Source: Polychytrium aggregatum | Lineage: Eukaryota > Chytridiomycota > Chytridiomycetes > Polychytriales | DNA: 64,000 bases | NCBI RefSeq assembly: GCF_025602895.1 | Contig: NW_026516309.1 | Span: 62,001-126,000 of the forward strand | Direction of reading: 5' to 3' | Shown: positions 14,210 through 47,800 of the stretch, piece by piece | How positions within the stretch are numbered: the first letter of the stretch is position 1 | Layout: every line of letters starts with the position of its first letter | Translations under genes and position numbers: made by a program | Notes under the pieces: model-generated | What the model saw: only the letters and a program-made list of their open reading frames with translations | Told to the model about the DNA's origin: nothing | The model's database searches: none

Positions 14210-15901
14210 TCAACGATGCAGTCCATTCTGGAGTAGTGCCAACGAACATGCTTCGCTCCGGATCAACTGCAGCGACAACGGATAGCCCATACCGAGGATT
14301 CGGATGCTCAGGGCAAACTCCTCAATGTTCTTCAGCGCCTTGATCACCTTCTCGTCGGCGGTGGAGCCGTCAAAGTCGATGTACTGCAGCCAGAGTGCGC
14401 CGCGAGACCAACAGGGTTCAGTTGCTGCATCCCCGAGTGCTCTGTGACAGCAATTCAACAGCATCGACAGCGCAACAGCATCACCGCCAGAGCAGCAGAG
14501 ACAATCTCGGCACACTCACCAGCACGTACTCCCAGGGCTTGGCAAGCTTGATGGAACGGGTCGAAGGGCGAGACTCGACCTTGCAGATGCTGTTGGCCGA
14601 GTCTCTCCGTCAGCCCACAGGCTCAATCTCACACCGATGGACACTGTCCATGTCCCCATCGCAGGCGATCCCGCACTTACTTGATATCGCGCAGTGCAAA
14701 ACAGGACAGCGTCTTGAAGATCGCACCGCACTGATTCTTCAGCACAATCGAAATGCTTGTTCGTGGATCCATGTGACGCTCTGGTATGACGCTTGCACGG
14801 GCAATAACTACATAGCGCATGATGGTGTTGTCGTCGTCCTCGATGCCTTCGGTGATCACTTCGAGTCCATAGATAGCGGCTGCCCTGGCGCTGGCAATTG
14901 CAGCGCTGTCGAGGGGGAGGGATGCAGTTTAGGCAAGGGGCCACCAGCAGCGACAGCATCTATGATAGCCTCTGGCGATGAAGGGGGGACAGATCGCCAT
15001 CGTTCTGCCATTGCAGCCACTTCAACAAATCAATACCTGTGGAGACTGCCAGAGCTGGCAACCCAGGCAGCGCTGCCGGCCGTGTCCATCTCCTGGCTGA
15101 CTGCGACCCGCTGCTGCAGCTTGCTTATGAAGCGGCGACACTGGTCGATGGCATATGGATGCGACTTGATCTCGGTGATGGTCTCAAGAGAGGCACCAGG
15201 CACACCAACAAGACTGGACGGAATGAATGCAAGGGAGACCCACAAGTCGGGCGACCATCCCAGTCAGTGTGGATCTATCAAGCTGATCGGCCATCCCGGC
15301 GACACAGCCGGTCGGTAAGCTGCTCCACAGCTGTGTCGCTCCAGCAGCGACATCGATATGCAGCTTATCCTTCCTCAGCCGGCATCCTGACTGGCTCCAA
15401 CGCACACCGCTCGTCCGATAGCCCGACGCCCTCATGCCTTACCAGTGCTTCTCGTGATAGCAATATTCTCCAACAATGTACACGGAATACTGGTGCAGCA
15501 GATCATAGTTGTAGTGGAACGTCCCTGTGCTGGAGTTTTCTATGGGAACGACGCCGTAGGTCACAGCCTCGCTCTGGACTGCGTCAAACACCTGGAGACA
15601 GCGGGGGGGGGAAATCAAAGCAAATGCAAGAGCGGTTAGCGAGCCTGCACCGCTGTCAGGGTGAATGGATCCGCAGCATCGGCCCTGTCGGCGACAGCAA
15701 GTCGATATACGATGGCTATGGTGTGCAGAAACAGGGCATCTGCAGGTGGTGCTGACGCACATCGGCAAAGGAAGGGTAGCCACAGGTCTCAAAGTTGGAC
15801 GAGCGCAGCGTCGGGTCGGTGGAGAAGAGCTCTTCGACGGCACCCTCGGAATAGGCGCCTTTCTGGCCCTGAAATGCAATGCGGATAGGTTGGGCGGCCA
15901 T
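14210..15901 (-). CDS. PHA2: Prephenate dehydratase with ACT domain
   Basis: Several exons give the full enzyme. 'MAAQPIRIAFQGQKGAYSEG' is the N-terminal strand and loop of the PDT domain. 'YGVVPIENSSTGTFHYNYDL' carries the family signature, and 'SHPYAIDQCRRF' is the conserved SHP...QC segment. 'EDDDNTIMRYVVIAR' leads into the regulatory ACT domain, with 'CGAIFKTLSCFALRDI', 'KVESRPST' (the ESRP phenylalanine-binding motif) and 'YIDFDGST' through to the end. The enzyme converts prephenate to phenylpyruvate in phenylalanine synthesis, and the ACT domain normally gives feedback inhibition by phenylalanine. At least five introns are needed. The exon carrying ESRP spans about 14,592-14,517 and ends at a GTGAGT donor. 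The final exon extends about 15 residues beyond the usual end. Confidence 0.88.
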
Positions 15902-16371
15902 GCTGGATCGACTGAGATGTCCGGGAGGAGACGGAGGAGGAGGAAACAGGACCGGCTGCGTTCCTGATCGGCACCAGAGGGGGCTGGTGGCGGCAGCACG
16001 TGGAGAATGCAGGGGTCCTGGAGTGAATCATGATGGCGCTGTCAAGGCGCTGGGAGGTGATGCGTGAGATGCGATGCGCGAGATGGATCGCCAGTTTGAT
16101 GCCGAACATGACCGGACTGGACAGACTCGGGGACAAGAGTGGGCAAGAGTGGGCAGCAGGTGCGACTCATGACCAGACATTGGGAGCATCACTCGGAGCG
16201 TATCCCACAACTGTGTCGGGCCATGCAAAATATGGATATCACTATCAATTTTTTCCGGCCCCTCGTGGCTGCTCATCTCGAATATGAATACACGCTGTAG
16301 ACCAAGATGCAGCAAAAGTTGGAATCCGGCCATGGTCGGTTGACGGCATTTGGTATCGTCTTGAGCCAATT
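15902..16371. other. Upstream region of prephenate dehydratase
   Basis: No coding frame was recognised. It holds the promoter side of the dehydratase gene and leads into the foldback sequence preceding the Fanzor gene. Confidence 0.45.
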
Positions 16372-16463
16372 GACGGTGGTGGTGGGCAATTGGTGTGGAG
16401 GAATGACCAATTGTATCATTGTTGGAAGCTCCACTCCGATTGCGGACAAGAACCACCACCGTC
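16372..16463. repeat. Imperfect inverted repeat (foldback) upstream of Fanzor
   Basis: The left arm at 16,372-16,400 ('gacggtggtggt'...'ggtgtggag') pairs with the right arm at 16,429-16,463 ('ctccactcc'...'accaccaccgtc'). There are two mismatches and one six-base insertion, around a 28-base loop. It could be a small MITE, a transcript hairpin, or part of the 5' end of the Fanzor element. No matching copy was found on the 3' side. Confidence 0.6.
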
Positions 16464-16714
16464 TGAATCTCTCTGGTTGGAAACCTAGTCAAGCGTGGCT
16501 GTGTGTCAGCGAGATGGCATGATCGTTTGGCTATCAGGCAAGACTCACCTTGACAAGATGTCTTCCCACGACTGATTGAGCGAGCGATGCGTTTCTGGAT
16601 CTGAATCAAGGACGCCACTGCACAGTATCACTGCCAGCCCAAAATGCGCTGGTTTTGAGGAGATTCTTTCTTCCCCAAGAACAGAACCAGCCATCGTCGC
16701 TATTTTCTCGCCAG

Positions 16715-19315
16715 ATGACTCCCAAGAGAAAGACGCCCCCCGACCCCGACCCGGGATCACCCAATGACTCTCCTGTGGCCAAGAAACCCGTCATCAAATC
16801 GTGTCGTGCCTGTGGCCTGACCAACCATGTTAGGCCCTTCACCAAGAAGTGCACAGCCAGAATCGACAGCAGCCCTGCCTCGGTCGCTGAAATGGTCAGC
16901 CAAGCACCCAAGGTCCCTGTATGTGCCACGTACGGGGAAGAGGGTCATGCCAAAAGCAGCAGTTCATTGTGTACCAAGAAGAACCCACTCTGGAGCTCTA
17001 CCTTGCCTGACTGTGGCCCAAACGAGCAAGTCAAGGCCGACTACTCCACCGTCAAGTGCACCCTCGACGCCATCATCAAGAACGATGCCTTGCACGACAA
17101 GATCGAGGAGACTGTCCGGGCCATGACACACGTGCAGTACGAAGCATCTCGTCTCCTGGAGCTGCATCTCAGGCGGTGCTTGGACGAGGGCATCACTCTC
17201 CCCACTGTGTCGTCGAGTGAACCCGCGTTTGTTCGAAAGTGCTTCAATATGGTGCAGACAGGAACAGTGAGTGTCAGGACAAACACCCCGGAAGATGACA
17301 GGCACCTCCTCGACACATATGAGATGTATCGACGTGCATGGAGTGGATCGTGTATCCTGCCTCCAGTGTCCCTCCCAAAGGGTACTGGGTCACAGGTCCT
17401 TGGTTTGGCTGTCAAGGCCTATGCCGTCAACTGCGAGACCCACGTTCTCGATCGATACTGGTCCCTTCTACGCCGATTCTGCAATCTGGTCCTGGTTGCT
17501 CCCAAGGGTGTGAAACGGCACACACACGTCGACAAGTGCATGAAGCTGATGGAGAATCCCCTCTCCAAGACACTCCTCGTTGATCTGAGAAAATCCTTCG
17601 CCCACCATGCCGACCAGTTGTATGAGTTTCGGTACGAAAGCCACCAGGACCTGTACAAAGTCGTACCAATTCTGGCCAGTGAGGTCTCTCGCCTGACCCA
17701 CCTGAAGGAGGCCCTCTTCATGGTGGTCTTTCAGAAGATGATCATTCCCAGGCTCGTGAGGGATACCGATGTTCTGAAAGGAGAGCGTGGGCGACTGAAT
17801 GAGGAGATGTGTCGCTCTATCGAACGAAGGCTGCCTGACAAGCACAACGCACTCCAGACCCAGCACGAGGAGGTGTGCAAGCAGATCGCTGTGAACATGA
17901 AACGGATCAAGCGCATCACCGACCGGCTTGCCCAGACCAAGAAGCGCCTCAACATCCCTCGAGCACAGTGCACATTGGTCCCGCTCTGCGATGCCCGAGC
18001 CAAGTATGTCAAGCTCGACACCACAGCACTGTGGGAGATCCTTGGATACCAGACTGGCACTGGACTCAAGTGGGGCGACCTGAAGACCAAGGTCAATGGC
18101 ACCACAAAGCAAGAGACCTTCTGGCAGACCAACTTCAAGCTGGATCCGAGACTCTTTGGTGCCAGGGAGAAGGGGAAGCAGCTCTTTGGCTGCGAGATCA
18201 CCACCGATGGAGTCGGGTGCTCGATCACCACGCTCAGATACAAGATCCTGGAGAAGAAGGATCCTAATGTCAAACCAGAATCCACAGACAAGGACGACAA
18301 GACACCCAAGCTCACCCCCGAGAAGAAGATCCAGACCAGGGTCAGTCCCATTGACGACTCTCGATCCACATGGATCGGGATCGACCCTGGTGTGGGATCG
18401 ATCTTCACTGCTGTCATTCGAGCACCCGGTCAACCATCCATCCAGGAGCAAGACGGTGTCAAGGTGACCAAGGCACAGCGCGCCAACGAGAAGATCGTGT
18501 CGTTCTCCAACAAGGAGTACCAGCATCGATGTGGCACCACCCAGGCGACCAAGTGGATCCAGAGCACCCATAAGATCCTTGGTCTGCAGCAATGGATGAG
18601 CACCACACCAAGTCCCAAGATCCCTGGGGTGGCTTCATTCCTGCAATACATTCGCCATGTGTTCGATGGAGACATGCTGGACAAGCAGCTGTACTTCAGC
18701 CTGACCCGGCGACGGCGATTCAAGCGACTCGATCTCCACAGCAAGCGACAGCGCACCGTCCACGAGATGTGCAAGCAAGTCATTGACCAGGCACCAAAGG
18801 AGACCGAAGTGGTGATTGCCTTTGGGAATGTTTCGTGGAAACAGGGGAAGGGATACGCATCCAGTCCCAGGAGACTCAGGTTTGCCAAGTACTTTGAGCA
18901 GTTCCACCACCACCAGAGACGACCACCAGACCGACCCGTCTCCAAGATCCATGTGTGCTCGGTGAACGAGTTCAACACATCCCAGGTGTGCTCACATTGT
19001 CGGGAAGCCAAGCGACTCGAGAAGGTCGAGCATCTTGATATCGAGAAACCACACTTTGTCCGGAGCTGTGCAAGCTGCCATACGCTGTGGGATCGAGACA
19101 TCAATGCCTCAAGGAACATGATCTCGGTATGCCAGTCGATCGTCGCCACAGGGGATCGACCGAGTGTATTCAAGACTGTGCTTCCCAAACCAACCAAAAA
19201 CAAAGAGATTGCCAACGAAGACAGGAGTGCAATGCCATGGCCTACCCGCTGGGCCTACAAGTCAGTCAGTGGGCTTCAGAAGCCAGAAAGTGACTGTCCG
19301 TTTCTTTCTGGATAG
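16715..19315 (+). CDS. Fz: Fanzor: eukaryotic TnpB-like RNA-guided nuclease
   Basis: A single 866-residue frame without introns; the first ATG is at 16715 ('MTPKRKTPPDPDPGSPNDSP'). The basic N-terminus has a zinc-knuckle-like CX2CX4HX7C (C30, C33, H38, C46) and a second, degenerate one (C70, Y73, H78, C86). The long middle region corresponds to the wedge/REC part. The C-terminal third is the RuvC nuclease: motif I 'WIGIDPGVGSIFTAV' (D557), motif II region 'VVIAFGNVSW' lacking a glutamate, then 'VNEFNTSQVCSHC' with E752. A TnpB-type zinc ribbon follows (C759, C762, C785, C788), and motif III is 'LWDRDINASRN' (D795). Fanzors are guided by an RNA from their own 3' region and cut DNA. All catalytic positions appear intact, unlike the two relics in this window. 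The lack of introns among intron-rich neighbours fits a mobile origin. No transposase gene lies nearby. Confidence 0.93.
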   Translation: MTPKRKTPPDPDPGSPNDSPVAKKPVIKSCRACGLTNHVRPFTKKCTARIDSSPASVAEMVSQAPKVPVCATYGEEGHAKSSSSLCTKKNPLWSSTLPDCGPNEQVKADYSTVKCTLDAIIKNDALHDKIEETVRAMTHVQYEASRLLELHLRRCLDEGITLPTVSSSEPAFVRKCFNMVQTGTVSVRTNTPEDDRHLLDTYEMYRRAWSGSCILPPVSLPKGTGSQVLGLAVKAYAVNCETHVLDRYWSLLRRFCNLVLVAPKGVKRHTHVDKCMKLMENPLSKTLLVDLRKSFAHHADQLYEFRYESHQDLYKVVPILASEVSRLTHLKEALFMVVFQKMIIPRLVRDTDVLKGERGRLNEEMCRSIERRLPDKHNALQTQHEEVCKQIAVNMKRIKRITDRLAQTKKRLNIPRAQCTLVPLCDARAKYVKLDTTALWEILGYQTGTGLKWGDLKTKVNGTTKQETFWQTNFKLDPRLFGAREKGKQLFGCEITTDGVGCSITTLRYKILEKKDPNVKPESTDKDDKTPKLTPEKKIQTRVSPIDDSRSTWIGIDPGVGSIFTAVIRAPGQPSIQEQDGVKVTKAQRANEKIVSFSNKEYQHRCGTTQATKWIQSTHKILGLQQWMSTTPSPKIPGVASFLQYIRHVFDGDMLDKQLYFSLTRRRRFKRLDLHSKRQRTVHEMCKQVIDQAPKETEVVIAFGNVSWKQGKGYASSPRRLRFAKYFEQFHHHQRRPPDRPVSKIHVCSVNEFNTSQVCSHCREAKRLEKVEHLDIEKPHFVRSCASCHTLWDRDINASRNMISVCQSIVATGDRPSVFKTVLPKPTKNKEIANEDRSAMPWPTRWAYKSVSGLQKPESDCPFLSG

Positions 19316-19570
19316 ACTGTAAGTATCTCGCACTGTTGTGCATTTTGACAGTGGATGCCGGGTCGCCCATATTCTGGGCAGTCCACTTCGGGGTTGCCAT
19401 CCCTCTTGGGATGGTCGATGGGAGGTGTTTGACTCCCTTGTGCAAAGTGTGTGTGTGTGTGACGGCGAGAGGCTTCTCGCCTTCCCTCGGGGGTCTCTCG
19501 CCAGAGACTGCTCTTCTCGCCGACCGAGGTGGCTCCGAGAGCGCGTTTTTTCGTTCTCGCTCATTTTTTT
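19316..19570 (+). ncRNA. Candidate Fanzor guide (omega/f) RNA region
   Basis: Directly downstream of the Fanzor stop lies a noncoding segment with stacked hairpins: 19,397-19,414 (ccatccc/gggatgg around tctt), 19,420-19,437 (gggag/ctccc) and 19,464-19,481 (ggcgaga/tctcgcc). Further copies of 'tctcgcc' follow at 19,495-19,520. The segment ends at T-tracts (19,547-19,552 and 19,564-19,570) of the kind that stop RNA polymerase III. In known Fanzor and TnpB loci the guide RNA overlaps or follows the 3' end of the gene and its 3' end lies at the element boundary. Placement here rests on position and hairpins only. Confidence 0.45.
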
Positions 19571-20090
19571 AACATGAAATTTTTTCATAGTGTCAGGTAG
19601 AAAAATGCACCGATAGACACAGTGATAGCACTGACTAACGCCCAGTGTGGCGACTGTGAAGCAGCCGATGGCATGTCCAGAGCTGCCCATAGCATCATGC
19701 GAGCGCATCAGACGGCTCGTCTCTTGGACAGTGGTATCGCGTCGTCCTTGAGAAGACGATTCTGTTGAGGAGATGAGCAGGTGAGACTGTGGAGCGTCAC
19801 GATCATCGCACGCTCGGGCTCTTGTGGCTCGGGTCTGTGCATGAGTGCCGATGCTGAACACACCTTTTCGCTTGCCGGAATGGATCTTGGCGGCAGAAGC
19901 GAGGCGCTGGATCGGATCGGTGTGTCGGAGAACCTTTGGCGCACATACACATGCGTTAGCTCACTCGTCAGGCGCATCGAATGAGGCGCCTTCGGGAAGA
20001 ATCCAAGCTGGATTCTCAGAGCCTAAAAAAGGTCCACGCTGGGTTGGGTTGCGTTGGGTTGGGCGGGGTTTGGGCAAATCAGCCTCTTGC
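19571..20090. other. Intergenic region after the Fanzor locus
   Basis: This is an A/T-richer stretch after the T-tracts. The right boundary of the Fanzor element should lie here or just before, but no terminal repeat or target-site duplication could be recognised by eye. On the minus strand a frame from about 19,977 to 19,708 is open but has no supporting homology. Confidence 0.4.
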
Positions 20091-44122: not shown

Positions 44123-44796
44123 TTAGTTGTGGGTGTCGGGACGGAAGATGTTGGGCCGCGGGTGCTCCTCGGGTCTCAGCGGTGACGGAGCGTTCAGAGG
44201 AGGTGGCAGATACCCGATGTGGGTCAGGTACAGCAGCCCTCGCCCGGCGATCCTCCCGGCCTGGGAACCGAGGGCCGAATAGATCGACCGGGTGTTGGTG
44301 TTGTCGACCAGGAAGGACATGCTCAGGATCAGATGCATGAGCGTCGACATGGACGAGTCGTTGGTGAGCTGAGGCGTGAGGAGCAGAGACTTGAATCGCT
44401 CGCGGGTCTCGAACATGACGGACCAGCCAGAGGCATTGACAATCTCAAAGAGTCGAGTTTCGGTGATGACGCTGCGAGGTGGGCCGAGGGACAGGATGTG
44501 TGGGATGGTGGTGTGAGTGAGTGAGTGACTACCGAGGAATGGCACTCATCCTGCTGCCCTCCCAGTCCGCTTGCCACTCGGCTCGCTCGCTCATCTCACC
44601 TGCGCTCTGGGTCGCTGATGTGGAACACAAACTTGGGCAGGGCCACCTCGGAGGCAGCGATCGCAGCGACCACCTTGGCGACATGGTCGACTGGATTCAT
44701 GGTGATGGTCACGGGGGTGGCATTGGAGGGAGCGATCCCGATGCGGATGCACCCCTTGATATACTGCCAGATGTAGTCGTCCGAGTGGCACACTGA

Positions 44797-44881
<85 letters not shown>

Positions 44882-47800
44882 GGATGAGATGAGCTGCTGC
44901 ACCGCCACCACACCACCACACCACACCACCACCACACCACATTGCCATATCACATCCAGTGACTCACCTCCATAGACACTGTCGCTTGCAATCAGCGATG
45001 GTCGGATGATCGTCGCAGGCACTCCCCTCGATCGTGCCTTGTTGATCAGCTGTTCAGAGACCCACTTGGTCTGTGCATACCCGCCAGAGACGTTCCAGTT
45101 GGAATACACCCTCTCCTCGAGCGGCGTCCTTGCACCCCGTGCCATGGGAATCGCCCCGACCGCCGAGATGAAGTGCAGCGGCTTCAAGTGGTGGGTCGTG
45201 GCCAGCCGCAGGGCCGTCGCCGTGCCCAGGACATTCGGCCCCTTGAGCGCCTCATAGTCGTCGAGCCAGTGCACCTCGGCGCCGCAGTGCACAACCATGT
45301 CGGTCTCCTTGCTGATCTTCTTCCATCGCTTGTTGGTCAGTCCCCACTGGTCGAGCGACAGATCGCCACAGACACCAACGAGTCGCGGCTTGACATTGTT
45401 CACGAGGTAGTGCGTTTGCTGCGGGTTGAGGATCAGCTTCCTGGCTGTCTCAAAGATGCGGTCGATGGCAGCCTGGTCGCTCGCGGCTCGGACCAGACAG
45501 TAGATCCTGGCAGCAGGGAACTTGGCAGCCAGCTCGTACAGCAGGAACGATCCGAGGAAGCCAGTGGCCCCCGTCAGGACGATGCCGCGAGGCGACTCGG
45601 GAAAGACAAGTGGAGGGAGACCCTCGGCCGTCACACTCGCATCGTCGAGCCGGGCGGCCTCCTGGTCGAGGTCGACTGTCGGCGGCATCAGCGGGTGGTT
45701 GCCTTGGAGATCAATCACCAGCTGGGCGACATCGAGGGGCGTCAGGCCGTTCGAGAGCAGCATCATCGGCGAGATCTCGACATCGTACTCTTCCTTGATG
45801 GCCAGGGCCAGGCGGCCGACGCTCAGCGAGTCAAACCCAGCTCCGCTGATGCTGTAGTTGCGGCCGTCGAGAGAGGGAATCCCGAGGAGCTGGCTGCCGA
45901 GGCTGGAGATTGCAGCCGCGATGCAAAACAGCGGGGCCTCGCTGGGGGCGAGACGGGGATACACAACGGATCCTTGGTGCAGATCGTTGTTCTCGGCGAT
46001 CCACTTGATCTTCTTGAGGTCGCGCTTGCCAATCTCGGTCATGGGGATCTCGTCGAGCTGGAAGCAGTTGTGGATCGGCACCTTGGAGACGTTTGCAAGG
46101 CCAAGCAGATCCTGGGTCATTCGGATGATGTCGCTGGGCTCGGTGCGGGTCGTGGGGCGGGCCTGGAGAACATACAGCATCACGATCTTCTTCTCGGAGG
46201 TCTGGACAAACGCACAGTCGGCGATGGTGTGGCTCAGGTGCTGGACGACCAGGGCCTCGAGATGGTTCAGGTCGACATAGACACCGTTGACCTTGATCTT
46301 CTGGTCGAATCTGGAGTGATGGTGTGAAGTGAGGGAATGAATGATGTGAGTACTCGGGATACAGGAGCGGGACGTGTCGTCAGGGTACCAGATGTGCACT
46401 CGTCATCAATGAGAGTTGCAGCACCCGGCCATTGACCTCACCTTCCAACCACAGTGAACTCGTTCTCGCTGACCATCTCGACCCAGTCCATGGTGCAGAC
46501 TCGGGGCGAGCCGTCGCTGAGGAAGCCAAAGGAGGCCAGTCTGTCGTTGGGATTGGCATTGACAAAGTCGGGGTGGTTGCGGATGGGATGGTCGGGATCG
46601 ACGGCGTAGACGAGGACGCCGCTCTTGGAGACATTTTGATCAACGATATTGCCCTCCTCGTCAAAGAGGAGGCAGCGCACCCCAGGCTTGGCCTGCTTGT
46701 AGACTAGTTTATGTGCTTCGAGGATCTGGTTGACTGGTTGGAAAAACATCGCAGCGGCACCAATCAAGAGAGCCTGGAGGTTGAACTGAGAATGAATATC
46801 CTTGGAAATGTGTATCTGAAATGTCTGAATAGTCTCCTGTCACCCACCTCGCTCGATCCATATGCTGACATCAACTCTGCATTTGGAAGAATTTTTCTCG
46901 CGCGCTGAACAATGCTTGGAGACACGAGCTCCGAGCCCAAGCCGATCTTTCTCGTTTCTGTCCATTTGACATCGGGATTCTGATTCTGAGCAACACTGAT
47001 AATCATCTTCATGAGCGAGGGCGTCTGCGCATGGGTAAAGTAATGCGAATCATCCATCAGCATTGGTGGGACGAATTGCTTGCCGTTCTCAATGGCAGCT
47101 TACCAGATATAGATACGATACGCCATCGTCAAGCATTCTGATGATGCTCTTGATTTTGTCGACAGTGTTGGGTGTGGGCTGGGGGGTCCACAAAGATCCG
47201 TTGAGGTTCAAGGCGCAGAGCATCAAAGTGAAAGTTGCGACAAACGAAGGTGTCTGATCGCCATGCAAGTTAGTTCTCAATTCATGGATGGCTCGACGCT
47301 CTGTTGCACAGGATCATATAGCTTACCTGACACACTCCAATCTTTAAAAACATGTGCCCCAGAATGCTTCTGCCAGTTGTTGCACCAATATGAGGGAACT
47401 TGTATCTGAAGAACCATAAAGGAGTCTCAGAGAGTTAGAGACTTCGTTCAGTTGGAATCATCAAAGCGGTTGAAATGCCACGGGTCACTTACGTCTTGGG
47501 AATGCCTGTTTTCGTGGTTTGAGGAGCACCAACGAGGCACAGAGGTCAAACACACTTCCTGCTGATGTTTCGTTGTCCGTGTTCCGCTATCTCAGTCGCC
47601 ACCTGATGTTCGCCCAGGTTCATATTCTTCCTCTGTAGTTGGAACTTGGCTCGCTCGTCACCATTCTCAAACACCCACATACCAGTCGTTCCAGAGGTCC
47701 CCAAATAGGCGACAAAGTCGTCGAGGGGTTCACAGACTTCGAGAGACGGGTGTGGGATGTTGTCCAGCACCGGGAACGTGGTGGCATCGGCCAAAGTCAC

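Follow-up and report, generated by a model that had tools for sequence, protein, structure and literature searches.

The window encodes a predicted Fanzor1

We analyzed a 64,000-nucleotide stretch of the genome of the chytrid Polychytrium aggregatum (RefSeq assembly GCF_025602895.1, contig NW_026516309.1, positions 62,001–126,000), referred to here as the window; coordinates below are window positions, and features lie on the forward strand unless stated otherwise. P. aggregatum is described as a saprobe growing on chitin (PMC12115818, available to us in part). A preliminary description, made from the sequence alone, had proposed that the window carries an intact Fanzor, that is, a eukaryotic relative of the TnpB nucleases, in one uninterrupted frame of 866 residues. 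The open reading frame (16715–19315) indeed runs from an ATG at 16715 to a TAG at 19313–19315 without a stop (866 codons), and the coordinates also confirm the places given for D557, D795, and the four ribbon cysteines.

We scored residue invariance on an alignment of the catalytic region with 16 rows (15 relatives and the window protein). The RuvC-I aspartate D557 (18383–18385), in a DPG motif, is the same in all 16 rows, as is G704 (18824–18826), which occupies the usual place of the RuvC-II glutamate. That glutamate is displaced to E752 (18968–18970), also invariant in 16 of 16 rows, six residues ahead of the first ribbon cysteine and opposite the DEYKTSS stretch of SpuFz1 from Spizellomyces punctatus. 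The four-cysteine, TnpB-type ribbon (C759, C762, C785, and C788; 18989–19078) was recognized by a Pfam match and by alignment, and the RuvC-III aspartate D795 (RDINASRN; 19097–19099) is near-invariant, being absent from one truncated row. Alignment also placed two zinc knuckles near the N terminus: C30, C33, H38, and C46 (16802–16852), followed by C70, position 73, H78, and C86 (16922–16972). Among the 40 genomic copies of the gene that we fetched, codons for D557, E752, and D795 are kept in every one, with a stop at codon 783, ahead of the D795 codon, in seven. The earlier statement that no inactivating change is present therefore holds for the catalytic residues but not for position 73 (codon at 16931–16933), which is tyrosine in the window copy alone and cysteine in all 39 other copies.

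Above the Pfam cut-off there was only the Cas12f1-like_TNB zinc ribbon (E = 3.5e-9). Searching 5.8 billion proteins returned 20 relatives, five of which are predicted P. aggregatum proteins; the closest of the other 15 share 33%–38% identity with the window protein, and a second search using the alignment added just three proteins. Profile matches were strongest to the three solved Fanzor1s, SpuFz1 (7e-48), PpFz1 (2e-35), and GtFz1 (1.5e-21), ahead of the mimivirus Fanzor2 L79 (1e-8), and the same three ranked first by fold, as expected of a Fanzor1. The motif given for Fanzor1 in the available part of PMC3627910, D-X(125,275)-[TS]-[TS]-X-X-[C4 zinc finger]-X(5,50)-RD, is present as D557, 197 residues, T755, S756, Q, V, the cysteines C759, C762, C785, and C788, five residues, R794, and D795. 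PMC10711439 names a rearranged RuvC-II glutamate near the ribbon and a DPG at RuvC-I as Fanzor1 features; both are found here (E752, C759, and D557-P-G, in 16 of 16 rows), at spacings that exceed the search pattern of that paper. Carriage by a eukaryotic transposable element is likewise evident from borders common to the copies and from terminal repeats.

Judged by sequence and fold, the gene is a fungal Fanzor type 1 with a predicted intact catalytic triad, which agrees with the identity first proposed. We checked for the outcomes that had been named as contradicting it, lack of a RuvC-type match or a best match outside the TnpB families, and saw neither; we rejected a non-TnpB identity given the Pfam ribbon match and the leading rank of Fanzor1s by profile and fold. 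Contamination by a bacterial TnpB or Cas12-type gene, or membership in some other family, could be read into the weak matches of a single-sequence PDB search (Cas12m, E = 0.18; TranC, E = 0.65) and the NCBIfam models TnpB and Cas12f2, which matched below cut-off; with solved Fanzor1s first by both measures, in a 64.7-Mb genome that is a chytrid's, we give this practically no chance. The searches also turned up a partial Fanzor1 relative (P0021) in the fungus Coemansia furcata, with a profile E-value of 4e-45.

A transposase-less, CACTA-like carrier present in many copies

The gene is held by a transposase-less, CACTA-like DNA transposon of P. aggregatum. In the window the whole element measures 3,353 bp (16240–19592) and runs from CACTAT to ATAGTG, with sharp borders common to the genomic copies; comparison of the ends gave a left terminal inverted repeat CACTATCAATTTTTT (16240–16254) and a right one AATTTTTTCATAGTG (19578–19592). 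At least 52 places in the genome encode a protein 76%–100% identical to the window Fanzor, a lower bound since 52 of 1,669 candidates were scored, and we accordingly rejected the notion of a single-copy domesticated gene. Of these 52, the 40 fetched copies were read with their flanks. Both element ends could be located in 36, among which the left CACTAT is present in 31 and the right ATAGTG in 34; the remaining four were left out of element alignments. We counted 184 genomic occurrences of the terminal repeat pattern and none of a reversed control pattern, and the last 148 bases of the element, used as a query, returned 160 candidates, of which the 40 scored were 98%–100% identical.

Shortened derivatives retain the ends. 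Nine sampled "ghost" elements (1,550–1,627 bp) carry internal deletions that fuse element positions 493–502 to 2294–2296, and in a 295-bp miniature the first 89 bases and roughly the last 177 are left. Counting ghosts, an exact 3-bp target-site duplication is present at 23 of 36 unique sites. The element thus has ends beginning with CACTA and the 3-bp duplication of CACTA transposons, though the latter not at the window copy. We term it CACTA-like, and do not file it as a CACTA member, because no transposase was seen among its frames, the PF02992 matches that might act on it in trans lie elsewhere in the genome, and the bases at its insertion sites differ.

Three predicted P. aggregatum proteins at NCBI have Fanzor C-terminal pieces fused to an F-box protein (P0001), a protein of AMP-binding/male-sterility type (P0002), and a PKC-like kinase (P0007). 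These fusions reflect errors in the public gene models or else insertion of Fanzor sequence into genes.

Selection on the coding sequence and conservation of the noncoding ends

Over the 25 copies without an in-frame stop, a set that may include frameshifted ones, the ratio of nonsynonymous to synonymous substitution (dN/dS) was 0.305, falling to 0.236 in codons 541–830, at a synonymous difference (pS) of about 0.16. Such codon comparisons indicate that the Fanzor family is under purifying selection.

Diversity and linkage were measured on 27 unique-site copies, second copies per site being excluded. Fourfold-site diversity was 0.121 (95% interval 0.100–0.143), compared with 0.027 in the 5' leader and 0.025–0.026 in the 3' noncoding end; because these values are so far under that of fourfold sites, both noncoding regions look constrained. 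The leader (16360–16714) contains a perfect 12-bp hairpin (arms at 16372–16383 and 16452–16463) and folds better than its shuffles (z-score −3.4, with 0 of 100 as good); covariation in the hairpin was looked for across copies and none was seen. About 16 of 36 aligned copies contain a block of roughly 366 bp that is absent from the window copy, where its place is at 16684–16685. The block is itself highly conserved (diversity 0.011). Short direct repeats at the junction favor a deletion as the source of this difference; an intron was considered, but by eye the block has no clean splice borders.

The 3' noncoding end (19316–19592) is split by a GT microsatellite near 19446–19461. Together with 20 flanking bases (19316–19612) it folds with a z-score of −2.8 (0 of 200 shuffles as good); a 136-nt core alone folds more weakly (z-score −2.0, with 9 of 200 as good). 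Eight of 33 variable columns are paired in this fold, against 43% of columns overall. Rfam gave three matches, each far under the gathering score of its family. On its position, its conservation, and the precedent of S. punctatus in the available part of PMC10432273, we regard the 3' end as a candidate omega RNA. Were the RNA to extend past the element, the right flank (19593–19615), perhaps beyond its first three bases, would by analogy with other Fanzors be the guide.

A resident CACTA family and a one-sided insertion motif

The genome has 29 matches to Transposase_21 (PF02992). One CACTA family has an element of 5,681 bp in which PF02992 and, below threshold, DUF4218 were matched; there are 18 near-complete copies at 98%–100% identity (L046:1323-7003, L047:2230-7910, and 16 more), and the right end has its last 13 bases in common with the Fanzor element. 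Both CACTA sites tested have an uninterrupted empty allele (340 of 340 bases at one; 339 versus 340 bases at 100% at the other), so the family looks mobile now. At one site (contig C402) the CACTA element is absent from the homologous contig C109, and a Fanzor element about 9 kb away is on both contigs (L022 and L014). This family may be the helper of the Fanzor element or a cousin of that helper.

The 23 Fanzor sites with an exact duplication have C or A at position −4 in all 23, G or A at −6 in 20, and A at −5 in 13; the first duplicated base is T or C in all 23, and T in 19. Little information lies to the right of the element, and none of 5,000 random flips of the sites was as asymmetric, at positions picked after the profile had been seen. 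The window copy is preceded by ATAT (16236–16239), which fits the C/A, T/C, A/C, N pattern, with no matching duplication on the right. We read the motif as a putative target-adjacent motif (TAM), since TAMs are located on that side and the conserved left-flank bases of S. punctatus belong to the measured TAM CATA (PMC10432273, in its available part). The predicted TAM is near 5'-RA[C/A]T[C/A]N and ends in the target duplication. We give an even chance to an alternative reading in which the motif reflects the targets that an asymmetric transposase prefers: the duplicated bases pertain to the cut of the transposase, and CACTA insertion sites are non-random too (C first in 7 of 11, by hand count). 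The location of the motif information wholly left of the element speaks for a TAM, subject to the post hoc choice of positions in the flip test, and so does the S. punctatus precedent.

Interiors are exchanged while insertion sites stay fixed

Element interiors are replaced between copies while their insertion sites stay fixed. Ten pairs among the 40 copies occupy the same site, eleven when the second copy of the window site (contig C346) is included, and twelve with L018/L057, where one contig has a full-length element and the other a ghost between flanks identical at 200 of 200 bases. In ten same-site pairs with both ends located (C346 included; L017/L037 left out because its left end was not located), we counted 18 differences in 23,461 flank bases and 804 in 35,458 element bases (2.3%), a rate thirtyfold that of the flanks; element divergence exceeds 2% in seven pairs and is at most 0.54% in three. 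Most of the differences in eight of the pairs (627 of 699, 90%) are variants also found in other copies, and private variants number 0–26 in most copies and 75 in one. The left end keeps its identity by site: the first 120 bases differ by 0.8%–0.9% in 11 same-site pairs versus 8%–11% in 150 random pairs, and the interior by 2.2%–3.6% versus 6.4%–10.9%.

Linkage between variants decays steeply in the unique-site copies. The squared correlation (r2) is 0.56 below 10 bp, 0.17 at 10–50 bp, 0.06 at 50–100 bp, and 0.04–0.05 beyond, where about 0.04 is expected by chance for 27 sequences by our own reckoning, and the share of variant pairs showing all four combinations rises with distance from 20% to 85%–89%. 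For a family of dispersed transposon copies, so nearly complete a loss of linkage within 100 bp seems uncommon, in our own judgment rather than from a survey. As a control, all 11 variant positions in 1.3 kb of a CACTA subfamily co-travel at three dispersed sites, in a small set of four sequences with low divergence.

Five otherwise differing Fanzor copies (L028, L029, L030, L034, and L040) have a common frameshifted C terminus without the ribbon and D795, which from its sequence would be an inactive version spread between copies.

State of the window copy

Contig C346 has the same flanks as the window copy, without a single difference in 2,245 bases. The element there is 3,417 bp long, is frameshifted near element position 2333, and has cysteine at residue 73. 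Compared with the 39 other fetched copies, the window copy is unique in T2, Y73, V706, and V810; T2 is shared with the C346 allele, which is outside the 39. Y73 deprives an otherwise constant zinc knuckle of one cysteine, so that the copy is at most putatively active. The preliminary description had suggested that this copy could be recently mobile. We found no support for this: both haplotypes carry an element at the site, and the window copy lacks an exact target duplication (TAT on the left, TCA on the right).

Just left of the element, on the reverse strand, is a prephenate dehydratase exon (15439–15999; Pfam PDT, E = 1e-11). Farther right, also in reverse, the window has a male-sterility-type NAD-binding reductase with a carrier-protein site (44591–46399; E = 2e-51), the same kind of gene as in P0002.

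Weighing the explanations

The explanation that we consider probable as a whole is that a Fanzor1 in a transposase-less, CACTA-like element is moved in trans, cuts empty sites, and is copied back. A CACTA-type transposase encoded elsewhere in the genome would move the element; its 3' end would be transcribed as an omega RNA continuing into the right flank, which would be the guide; and the left-flank motif would serve as TAM. The Fanzor–omega RNA complex would then cut the empty site on the homologue or sister, and repair of the break would copy the element back or onto the other allele. Where other copies serve as templates for this repair, interiors may be exchanged and the ghost deletion passed on, with the ends left as they were. 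Several observations weigh against this explanation. No transposase gene was found among the frames inspected inside the element, and an exact duplication is missing at 13 of the 36 unique sites, including that of the window copy. The CACTA family has a left end of CACGATG, and the first base of the right flank is T at 0 of 11 of its sites (hand count) versus 19 of the 23 Fanzor ones (p = 5e-6, Fisher test); these differences make it questionable as the mover. The 3' fold has too few compensatory changes for a structure to be proven, in-frame stops interrupt 15 of 40 copies, and no empty Fanzor allele was found at the five sites searched (at four of them the second contig is filled too, and the fifth has no second contig). 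A search with the joined L034 flanks matched one locus only and has no bearing on an empty allele. The lack of empty alleles is compatible with homing and equally with an old, immobile family.

An old and now inactive Fanzor family, with selection a thing of the past, would account for the missing empty alleles, the interrupted copies, and the absence of a duplication around the window copy; set against it are the 25 copies that remain free of in-frame stops at the pS and dN/dS given above and the catalytic codons present throughout, and we hold it to be rather doubtful. We think it still less likely that the shuffling is an artefact of assembly or polishing, with reads of different copies mixed into mosaics. 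Mixing of reads would likewise produce mosaics poor in private variants, with linkage gone by about 50–100 bp, but within the same assembly the CACTA subfamily keeps its 11 variants linked (few sequences of low divergence), one site has a full-length element opposite a ghost between equal flanks, and the first 120 element bases remain faithful to their site. Moreover, 18 near-identical 5.7-kb copies were resolved and there is no N in 354 kb examined, which points to a long-read assembly. Conversion among dispersed repeats is common in fungi, and ordinary ectopic gene conversion may suffice to replace the interiors without the nuclease. The mosaics require no Fanzor cut, and flank differences of 0.08% leave room for numerous events; over 1.3 kb no conversion is apparent in the CACTA family, a weak counterpoint from four sequences of a younger family. 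We put conversion without the nuclease at about evens.

Relation to known systems and meaning

With its ghosts, this further Fanzor1 element parallels SPu-1 of S. punctatus. As far as the available parts of PMC3627910 and PMC10432273 describe it, SPu-1 likewise belongs to a chytrid and holds a single gene, the Fanzor1 SpuFz1; it has inverted repeats, is present in tens of copies, leaves ghosts that retain the ends, has conserved left-flank bases, and contains no transposase. SpuFz1 is our best profile match. By the same sources, the two differ in their ends (short CACTAT repeats and 3-bp duplications here, 30–33-bp repeats and TA in SPu-1) and in their proteins (866 residues with two N-terminal zinc knuckles here, 633 residues in SpuFz1). 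Interiors are shuffled between copies in P. aggregatum, a point that those parts do not examine for SPu-1. The other solved Fanzor1s, PpFz1 of Parasitella parasitica and GtFz1 of Guillardia theta, have 15%–16% identity to the window protein over the aligned part. With CACTA/EnSpm transposons (Transposase_21) the element shares CACTA-type ends and 3-bp duplications, as well as the 13 terminal bases of the resident PF02992 family, whereas it lacks a transposase gene and its sites start with other bases than those of the CACTA family.

Fanzor1 is known from DNA transposons of several superfamilies (PMC3627910, available part). The main text of that paper and those of PMC10432273, PMC10711439, and PMC11423790 make no mention of CACTA or EnSpm, and literature searches for Fanzor with Polychytrium or with CACTA found nothing, although the CACTA link may be in print elsewhere; an algal genome paper mentions Fanzor and EnSpm and, in the part available, draws no link. 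What appears to be new is the CACTA-like carrier, together with the freely recombining copies, with the reservation that a key paper may lie outside the literature searched.

The service that eukaryotic Fanzors render to their elements is left open in the part of PMC10432273 available to us. It is conceivable, though we think it unlikely, that the Fanzor shapes the genetics of its own family, with RNA-guided cuts at empty sites that bear the TAM making insertions homozygous (homing) and break repair templated by other copies keeping more than 50 genes nearly freely recombining. If so, insertion sites would be fixed while nuclease cassettes, full-length versus ghost included, are exchanged, and the one-sided left-flank motif would be a natural footprint of TAM-dependent homing. 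The loss of linkage invites the question of whether the nuclease causes it. With a multicopy Fanzor1, many open genes, ghosts, an apparently mobile CACTA family, and both haplotypes of many regions, the P. aggregatum genome is a natural test system, with predictions on hand for the TAM, for the omega RNA, and for homing into empty sites.
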